A stretch of DNA of 18,719 nucleotides from Rhodoferax sp. (GTDB lineage: Bacteria > Pseudomonadota > Gammaproteobacteria > Burkholderiales > Burkholderiaceae_C): NCBI GenBank assembly GCA_029946045.1, contig JAQSDS010000396.1, forward strand, positions 1 to 18,719, read 5' to 3'. Numbering within the stretch: position 1 is the first letter of the stretch; each line of letters starts with the position of its first letter. The translations under genes and the position numbers were made by a program. A model generated the notes under the pieces. The model saw nothing but the letters and a program-made list of their open reading frames with translations. It made no database searches and had not been told where the DNA came from. Below, piece after piece: positions 15,443 to 18,322 of the stretch.

Positions 15443-18322
15443 ATGGTCACTTACCCTCATTTGTTCGAGCCTCTGGATCTGGGCTTCACCACACTGCCTA
15501 ACCGCGTCATCATGGGTTCGATGCATGTTGGGCTCGAAGAGGTCAAGGACGGCTTTGCCCGCATGGCGGCTTTTTATGCCGAGCGTGCGCGTGGCGGTGT
15601 CGGCCTGATCGTGACTGGTGGCATTGCACCCAACGACCTGGGCCGCCCCATGCCCGGTGGTGCGCGTTTGACCACGCCCGAAGAAGCGGCCAAACACAAG
15701 CCCGTGACCGACGCGGTGCACCAGGCCGGTGGCAAGATCGCCATGCAGATCCTGCACTTTGGCCGCTACGCCTACCACCAGGACCTGGTGGCACCCAGCG
15801 CCCTGCAGGCCCCCATCAACCCGATGAAACCCAAGGCGCTCAGCACCGAGGCGGTTTACCAGACCATCGACGACTTTGTGCGCTGCGCCGCGCTGGCCCA
15901 AAGTGCGGGTTACGACGGTGTCGAGATCATGGGTAGCGAGGGTTACCTGCTCAATGAGTTCATTGCCGCGCGCACCAACCAGCGCGACGACGAATGGGGT
16001 GGCAGCTACGCCAACCGCATCAAATTCCCAGTCGAGATCGTGCGCCGCACGCGCGAAAAAGTGGGCCAGAATTTCATCATCATCTACCGTCTGTCGATGC
16101 TCGACCTGGTCGAGGGCGGCTCCACGCTGGATGAAGTGATTCAGCTCGCGCAGTCCATCGAGGCGGCAGGGGCCAGTATCATCAACACCGGTATTGGTTG
16201 GCACGAGGCGCGCATTCCCACCATTGCCACCAAGGTGCCGCGCGCGGCCTGGGCCTGGGTCACGCAGCAGCTCAAGGGCAAGGTGGGTATTCCGCTGGTG
16301 GCCACCAACCGCATCAACACGCCCGAAGTGGCCGAGCAACTTCTGGCTGACGGTTTTTGTGACCTGATCTCGATGGCGCGGCCGTTTTTGGCCGACCCGC
16401 TGTTCATGCAAAAAGCGGCCGCCGGCAAGGCCGACGAAATCAACACCTGCATTGGCTGCAACCAGGCTTGCCTGGACCACACCTTTGCCGGCAAGGTGAC
16501 CAGTTGCCTGGTGAACCCGCGCGCCTGCCACGAGACCCTGATCCACATCACGCCAGCTGCCGCAGTTGAACGCCTTGCCGTGGTGGGTGCCGGCCCAGCT
16601 GGTTTGAGCTTTGCCACCACCGCCGCCCAGCGCGGCTTTGACGTGACCCTGTTCGACGCGGCCAGCGAGATCGGCGGCCAATTCAACATTGCCAAGCAGG
16701 TGCCTGGCAAAGAAGAGTTTTACGAGACCCTGCGCTACTACGGCAAGCAGATCGAGCTGACCGGGGTCAAGCTCAAGCTCAACACCCGGGTCAGTCCACA
16801 AGATCTGGTGGCTGGCGGCTTCAATCAGGTGGTGCTGGCCACCGGCGTCGCGCCGCGCACACCGCCGATCGAGGGCATCACCCACCGCAAGGTGCTCAGT
16901 TACCTGGACGTGCTGCGCGACAAAAAGCCGGTGGGTAAAACCGTGGCGCTGATCGGAGCCGGCGGCATTGGCTTTGACACCGCCGAATTCCTGCTGCATG
17001 AAGGCACCAGTCCAAGCCTGGACCAGGCCAAGTTTTTTGCAGAATGGGGCGTGGACACTGGCTACAGCACACGCGGCGGCCTGACGCCCGCCCACATTGA
17101 GGCCAGCCCGCGCAAGCTGTACCTGCTGCAGCGCAAGGCCAGCAAGGTCGGTGATGGCTTGGGTAAAACCACCGGCTGGATCCACCGCACCTCGCTCAAA
17201 AACCGCCATGTCGACATGCTGGCCGGCGTGAACTACCGCAAAATTGACGACGCGGGCCTGCACATCACGGTCAACGGCGAAGAGCGCACGCTGGCGGTGG
17301 ACAACGTCATCATTTGCGCCGGCCAGGAGCCGCAGCGCGAGCTGCAGGCCGAACTGCAGGCGGCAGGTCTGACCGTGCACCTGATTGGCGGTGCCGACGA
17401 GGCGACCGAGCTCGATGCCAAGCGCGCCATCAAGCAGGGCCTGGAACTGGCTGCCTCGCTCGGCGTGGTTCCCAAGTCGTCGGTAGCGCCAGCGTCCAGC
17501 GGCGCGGGCAAAGCCTTTGAGACCCTGAGCGTCAGCCTGAGCGACCACATTGCCACCATCCGTCTGAACCGCCCTGACAAAGCCAATGCCATGAACCTGG
17601 CCATGTGGCATGAGATTCGCCAGGCCTTCAAGTGGGTGGATGCCACTGCTGAGGCGCGCGTGGCGATTCTGGAAGGCGAGGGCAAGCTGTTCACCTCGGG
17701 CATCGACCTGCAGATGATGATGGGCATGGGCGACCAGATTCAGAACGACTGCGAGGCCCGCACCCGCGAAAACCTGCGCCAGGTCATCCTGGATCTGCAA
17801 GACACCCTGACCTCGCTTGAGCGCTGCCGCAAGCCAGTGCTGGCCGCCATTCACGGTGCCTGCATCGGCGGTGGCATTGATCTGATTTGTTGCGCCGACA
17901 TGCGCTACTGCTCAAGTGACGCCAGCTTCAGCATCAAGGAAATCGACATTGGCATGACGGCCGACGTCGGCACCTTGCAACGCCTGCCCAGGCTGGTGGG
18001 AGAAGGCATGGCGCGCGAACTGGCTTACACCGGGCGCAAGTTCGATGCTGCCGAGGCCCTGCAAATGAAGCTGGTGAACCGGGTGTTCGACTCACGCGAG
18101 GCGCTACAAAACGGTGTGCGCGAGCTGGCGGCAAGCATCGCTGCCAAGTCGCCACTGGTGATCCGGGGGGTGAAGGAAATGATCACCTATGCGCGTGACC
18201 ATTCGGTGGCTGACGGCCTGAATTACGTGGCCACCTGGAACGCCGCCATGCTGCTCAGCAATGACTTGCAGGAAGCCATGATGGCCAACATGGGGAAACG
18301 TGCCCCTGAATTCAAGGACTGA
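15443..18322 (+). CDS. Fusion: 2,4-dienoyl-CoA reductase (FadH type) + delta3,5-delta2,4-dienoyl-CoA isomerase-like crotonase
   Basis: This is a 959-residue fusion. Residues 1-676 are a complete FadH (E. coli about 670): an old-yellow-enzyme barrel with Y168 ([10 protein letters not shown]) and H254 ([10 protein letters not shown]) at the E. coli Y166/H252 positions; 4Fe-4S cysteines C336, C339, C343 and C355 (CIGCNQAC...TSC); a Rossmann FAD motif (VVGAGPAG, ~379) and an NADPH motif (LIGAGGIG, ~502). [15 protein letters not shown] linker (677-690) leads to a crotonase domain (691-959). This has [13 protein letters not shown] and [12 protein letters not shown]813, E833 and D841 keep the 20- and 8-residue spacing of the D176/E196/D204 triad of mammalian dienoyl-CoA isomerase. 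AGGAAG precedes the ATG. The reductase is certain; the isomerase is strongly suggested, though another crotonase activity is possible. Confidence 0.93.

Follow-up and report, generated by a model that had tools for sequence, protein, structure and literature searches.

Does this Rhodoferax locus encode, as a single polypeptide, two enzymes that would act one after the other on unsaturated fatty acids and, if so, how were they joined and does the joining matter? The locus lies in an 18,719-nucleotide stretch of DNA, analysed as a whole and referred to here as the window, in which a frame of 959 codons opens with ATG and contains no internal stop (Table 1). Judged from its sequence, the 959-aa polypeptide is a FadH-type 2,4-dienoyl-CoA reductase followed by a short linker and a dienoyl-CoA isomerase (DCI)-type crotonase, both domains being complete. 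Pfam places Oxidored_FMN (PF00724) at residues 7-331, Pyr_redox_2 (PF07992) at 377-645 and ECH_1 (PF00378) at 701-959. The first-pass annotation had read a single frame joining both enzymes; the open reading frame, the Pfam domains and the structure matches confirm it, and the FadH and crotonase residues that it had singled out all lie where it placed them. Elsewhere in the same genome, FadH-like and crotonase matches are at most 36% identical to the fusion, short flavin-site matches excepted. An antisense frame of 818 codons (window 15398-17854, minus strand) runs opposite the FadH part and most likely results from G+C-rich codon use.

Table 1. Coordinates, in the window, of the fusion gene and of its parts. 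Residue roles marked a and b are taken from the available parts of PMC12691678 and PMC10709515, respectively.
Feature	Position	Strand	Basis
Fusion gene, whole, 959 aa	15443..18322	+	FadH reductase - linker - DCI-type crotonase
FadH part, residues 1-676	15443..17470	+	PF00724, PF07992; 1ps9 match, E 1.7e-295
Y168 codon (= E. coli FadH Tyr-166)	15944..15946	+	1ps9 alignment; a
H254 codon (= E. coli FadH His-252)	16202..16204	+	1ps9 alignment; a
C336/C339/C343/C355 codons	16448..16507	+	identical in 116/116 fusions, window included
Linker, residues 677-690, Ala/Ser/Pro/Gly-rich	17471..17512	+	shortest among 116 compared
DCI-type crotonase part, residues 691-959	17513..18319	+	PF00378; NCBIfam PRK06142 above cut-off
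D813 codon (= human ECH1 D177)	17879..17881	+	alignment; b
E833 codon (= human ECH1 E197)	17939..17941	+	alignment; b
D841 codon (= human ECH1 D205)	17963..17965	+	alignment; b

Identity of the two halves

E. coli FadH (PDB 1ps9; E 1.7e-295) can be aligned with residues 3-671 from one end to the other; the two share length, the catalytic Tyr and His, four cysteines and the FMN and FAD/NADPH domains, both flavin domains of the FadH class (PF00724 and PF07992) scoring above cut-off. C336, C339, C343 and C355 are presumably the ligands of the 4Fe-4S cluster. Y168 and H254 were equated, through the +2 offset in the 1ps9 alignment, with Tyr-166 and His-252, which form the dyad of E. coli FadH according to the available part of PMC12691678. 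In that same part, E. coli FadH is a 72-kDa monomer, in which it differs from the fusion; it takes substrates with cis and with trans double bonds and makes 2-trans-enoyl-CoA directly, whereas the eukaryotic reductase, from a different family, yields 3-trans-enoyl-CoA, and evidence for E. coli FadH handling odd-position double bonds is stated there to be lacking (PMC12691678).

A multifunctional enzyme of the FadB/FadJ type was rejected, as no 3-hydroxyacyl-CoA dehydrogenase domain scored above cut-off (PF02737 reaches 21.1 bits against a cut-off of 22, over the stretch 378-409). FadB and FadJ likewise fuse a crotonase domain to a redox enzyme of beta-oxidation, but their partner is a 3-hydroxyacyl-CoA dehydrogenase and that of the present fusion is FadH.

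The crotonase half (residues 690-959) scores 414.9 bits against NCBIfam PRK06142, whose cut-off is 308. Among solved structures, this half comes closest to those of mammalian dienoyl-CoA isomerase (2vre, 8sk6 and 1dci; E about 1e-75), with 46% identity to the rat and human enzymes over about 260 residues; EchA21 ranks next (2e-61), followed from 7e-37 by 3pea, an enoyl-CoA hydratase/isomerase family protein, and by other hydratase-like chains. I754, D813, E833 and D841 align with I118, D177, E197 and D205 of human ECH1, which are named as catalytic in the portion of PMC10709515 at hand, and this agrees with the earlier claim that D813/E833/D841 match the mammalian DCI triad. Mammalian DCI (ECH1) thus has the same I/D/E/D active-site set, although the human enzyme is a separate, hexameric protein (same portion of PMC10709515); EchA21 (PDB 8soy) has an L/D/E/D set, but its matched chain is a crotonase only and is 42% identical.

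The D/E/D triad is found in 99/99 rows on the DCI side of our tree, 96 of which are bacterial (the window or sequences found by their likeness to it), the others being rat DCI, human DCI and EchA21. It occurs in 0/7 of the other crotonase rows, which are 3pea, with E/E/G at these positions, and six crotonase hits of the window's own genome, whose alignment is poor. A tree of residues 691-959, as the first-pass annotation had suggested building, placed this half with DCI and split that clade from the hydratase-like 3pea and the six own-genome crotonases at 99 SH-aLRT (a quick tree, with long branches flagged). An ordinary enoyl-CoA hydratase is ruled out by the active site, in which D813 occupies the position of the first Glu and the position of D841 is Gly in 3pea; a pair of Glu residues is what distinguishes hydratases from single-function isomerases in the available text of PMC5834635.

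The closest structures, the triad and the tree position together support the assignment of the C-terminal domain to the DCI type. Crotonases catalyse diverse reactions. Their families number 16 in a table from the accessible part of PMC1431709. This diversity, together with a dci homologue (L159) that lies outside the cluster beside unrelated genes, would allow the domain to act on another CoA ester, as a hydratase, a delta3-delta2-enoyl isomerase or an enzyme of an aromatic or alicyclic pathway, with FadH as a partner of convenience. We consider this unlikely in view of the D/E/D set in 99/99 rows against E/E/G in 3pea, of mammalian DCI as the nearest structures, and of the split at 99 SH-aLRT in the quick, long-branched tree.

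Relatives, spread and the linker

Since the genome of the window is fragmented (481 contigs, 86.7% complete), the fusion might be an assembly or sequencing artefact. Among 7998 candidates scored in a search with residues 600-959, 3560 proteins matched at E<=0.001, and the best 120 of these 3560 were compared: all of them span the full query, and 115, at 900 aa or more, are full-length fusions. Nine catalytic and Fe-S positions, including Y168, H254, C336, C339, C343 and C355, are identical in 116/116 fusions (the 115 relatives and the window), which share ancestry, so that such counts are not independent. Protein names among the listed relatives are 2,4-dienoyl-CoA reductase or crotonase family protein, each covering one half, and most entries are nameless. 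A scan of species genomes gave 519 relatives, of which the best 80 loci were classified: 30 are fused, isolates included; in 22 (L119 among these), fadH lies upstream of dci as a gene of its own; 27 have no FadH in the stretch taken, one of them (L110) being cut by a contig end; and one (L143) has a short FadH piece only. Fused genes occur in Rhodoferax antarcticus ANT.BR, in Rhodoferax sp. BLA1 and also in single-contig genomes. In pairwise comparisons of the window with ten fused relatives, pN/pS was 0.12-0.24 in the FadH half and 0.11-0.24 in the crotonase half (10/10 pairs), so that both halves are kept under purifying selection, and the relatives' fusions stay open and constrained down to 75% identity.

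The full-length relatives, the fused genes in cultured Rhodoferax and in single-contig genomes, and the selection on both halves reject an artefact, to which we give practically no credence. A sequencing error removing a stop and start at residues 676-691, which the first-pass annotation had considered, is excluded by the 115/120 listed relatives that are full-length and by the 30/80 fused loci. Two loci are irregular. In L119, a Rhodoferax contig, the fusion frame is broken after the FadH match and ahead of the crotonase, which could reflect faulty assembly or decay of the gene. The contig L145 bears Burkholderiales-like fadH and dci pieces under the label Granulicella (Acidobacteriota) and is probably from a mixed genome bin.

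In 399 genomes sampled from the family of the window, the fusion was found in at least seven (G000, G121, G346, G082, G226, G120 and G026), and two (G214 and G284) of five same-genus genomes show no fusion. A sample of 300 genomes from the order held 51 with a DCI-like match, and one of 398 genomes from the phylum held 44; in each, the fusion was seen only in the window's own genome, counts which leave out a 755-aa frame in G720. No FadH was found in the long frames surrounding the DCI-like genes of G004, G136, G383, G498, G532, G010, G386, G152, G573 and G612. The same domain order, when searched for in this way, is patchily distributed over five genus codes of one family, the named examples being mostly Rhodoferax, with one Polaromonas bin.

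Measured between fixed anchors, the linker region spans 27-59 residues across the 116 fusions, the window having the shortest, and over residues 676-690 the median identity of the fusions to the window is 8%. A linker so poorly conserved in length and sequence speaks for a flexible tether rather than a built channel. The first-pass annotation had proposed channelling, which is not supported as stated. True channelling would have the DCI and FadH active sites facing each other in a fixed arrangement, with the acyl chain passed on unreleased; the presence of consecutive steps in one chain and the repeated fusion speak for it, but the linker speaks against it, and a CoA thioester would have to swing a long way between two sites that each have their own CoA pocket, so that we judge it improbable. 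An AlphaFold model (pLDDT 66.8, pTM 0.50; built with 55 close relatives) is weak and does not bear on the domain arrangement.

Gene neighbourhoods and repeated joining

In many relatives from other Burkholderiales, fadH and dci are adjacent, separate genes. Three loci (L035, L036 and L037) have between them a gene for a 145-147 aa protein, which matches the SnoaL_2 domain in L036 and L037, the two scanned. Elsewhere, FadH-SnoaL fusions of about 828-848 aa carry a SnoaL-like domain at the FadH C-terminus, with dci just downstream (L027, L028, L030, L034 and L039), with dci about 2.3 kb off (L032, L141 and L149) or without a nearby dci (L029, L031 and L033). This C-terminal extension, of the SnoaL/NTF2 type, matches PF12680 above cut-off in L027 and below it in L028 (two scanned), and no account linking FadH and SnoaL was found by title in the open-licence literature searched, where the one paper containing both terms is unrelated to judge by its title. 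In Aquabacterium LF-bin-187 and two Rugamonas (L158, L151 and L165), dci follows fadH by 46-100 nt, with no SnoaL match.

The SnoaL query was found in all five unfused genomes used as positive controls, chosen as known holders, and had no match at E<=0.001 in 7/7 fused genomes, that of the window being 86.7% complete. This absence is not peculiar to the fusions, because the unfused fadH-dci pairs L042, L151, L158 and L165 have no adjoining SnoaL and G004, with dci and no FadH listed, had no SnoaL match at E<=0.001. Among 250 genomes of the family, FadH was present in 21/25 of those with a close DCI versus 85/225 of the others (Fisher p 1e-5) and was not listed in the other 4/25; these are hand counts over related genomes, with three candidates scored per genome. 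In another family of the same class (L235, L236 and L237), the two genes are adjacent in reverse order, dci then fadH; two of these loci, L236 and L237, also have a GMC oxidoreductase gene and a divergent TetR-type regulator gene next to the pair.

In quick trees of both halves, the fusions do not hold together. The DCI tree keeps G226/G120 (L044/L045), G026 (L046) and the clade of the window apart from one another, and in the FadH tree G226/G120 fall within the FadH-SnoaL group, adjoining G213 and G141, whose dci is separate. Constraining the window clade and G226/G120 together gave p-AU values of 0.003 for DCI (17 rows vs 69) and 2.7e-11 for FadH (16 rows vs 28), again on quick trees, and adding G026 to the constraint gave 1.1e-6 and 3.2e-6, respectively, so that a single origin is rejected on both halves. 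On these trees, the fusion has formed at least three times independently. The G026 crotonase is more distant (38-39% identical), yet has D/E/D. Its frame (L046, 3106-6312) encodes 1068 aa, in which FadH and the distant DCI-type crotonase (M/D/E/D) are followed by some 100 further C-terminal residues that match no separate Pfam family at E<=0.001. L173 (Comamonadaceae bacterium G21597-S1) and L174, which may represent a further origin, group with FadH-SnoaL relatives in the FadH tree (90, not starred) and with the window clade in the DCI tree (84); constraining L173 with the window clade was not rejected (AU 0.363).

In 38/116 fusions, a Met occurs at the position of F692 or up to four residues before it, close to the start of separate dci genes. 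This, the nesting and the missing SnoaL gene suggest that the fusion is the derived state, although gains and losses are indistinguishable by counts, which cannot prove direction. The simplest reading is that fadH and dci were joined, more than once, by loss of the segment between them.

Such joining might have no consequence: both activities could be present and the fusion be a mere by-product of deletion between neighbours, bringing no kinetic advantage. The gaps of 46-100 nt between separate neighbours in L158, L151 and L165 indicate that a small deletion suffices, and the patchy spread and the unconserved linker length and sequence fit the same account. At least three independent fusions, kept open and constrained in relatives down to 75% identity, and the adjacent but reversed pair, dci then fadH, of another family in the class weigh against it; we rate it a serious contender, at a little below an even chance. 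The repeated independent joining suggests that linking both steps is useful.

Proposed function

We favour, as a probable reading of the sequence data, a bifunctional auxiliary enzyme of beta-oxidation, fused from neighbouring genes at least three times and most likely flexibly tethered. The C-terminal DCI domain would convert 3,5-dienoyl-CoA, a by-product of odd-position double bonds such as that of oleate, to 2,4-dienoyl-CoA, and the N-terminal FadH domain would reduce the latter with NADPH, via FAD, the 4Fe-4S cluster and FMN, to trans-2-enoyl-CoA, which would return to beta-oxidation. This metabolic logic of two consecutive steps, already put forward in the first-pass annotation, is supported and gains further weight from the repeated gene adjacency and from the at least three independent fusions. 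The gene would have arisen from adjoining fadH and dci genes, probably often via loss of an intervening snoaL segment, and the link, most likely a flexible tether, would fix 1:1 expression and closeness. As human DCI is a hexamer and E. coli FadH a monomer in the parts of PMC10709515 and PMC12691678 available, the fusion may bring FadH units together around a core formed by the crotonase. The activities, the oligomer, the fusion route and the benefit of closeness are all predictions of this reading.

The patchy spread, the 4/25 genomes with a close DCI and no FadH listed, and the surroundings of the gene count against this reading. Neighbours of the gene in the window include dnaE, tolA, tolQ, a Tol-Pal-associated thioesterase gene, an aminotransferase gene, nusB, the lumazine synthase gene, ribBA and zapA, so that it sits amid riboflavin, Tol-Pal and dnaE genes and not among fad genes, no other fad gene being seen among the window ORFs scanned. 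No tRNA gene was found in the window. At its start (2-4546, plus strand), a TonB-dependent receptor gene, truncated at the edge of the window, is closely followed by the genes for an ABC-type substrate-binding protein and for a hybrid histidine kinase; the three may form one sensing unit.

No description of a FadH-DCI fusion was found, by title or abstract beginning, in the open-licence literature searched. To judge by that search, the architecture is probably a new combination of known enzymes, and its repeated origin is the most telling point. E. coli, according to the available part of PMC9329746, has no dienoyl-CoA isomerase and turns about 10% of oleate into 3,5-tetradecadienoyl-CoA, to be removed by thioesterases; missing the isomerase, it cannot convert 3,5-dienoyl-CoA to 2-enoyl-CoA. 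More speculatively, the FadH C-terminus of Burkholderiales could be a recurrent docking point, which has received DCI at least three times and also a SnoaL-like domain. FadH-DCI would then be a self-contained bacterial form of the reductase-dependent route for odd-position double bonds, a crotonase hexamer bearing six FadH units that clears dead-end 3,5-dienoyl-CoA without the thioesterase of E. coli, and the SnoaL-like domain would act on those same CoA esters as a helper that has gone unrecognised; we offer this larger picture tentatively. The fusion itself suggests that other bacteria met the dead-end oleate problem of E. coli by tying the missing isomerase to FadH, and its independent occurrences would provide a natural test of whether tethering successive steps of beta-oxidation matters.
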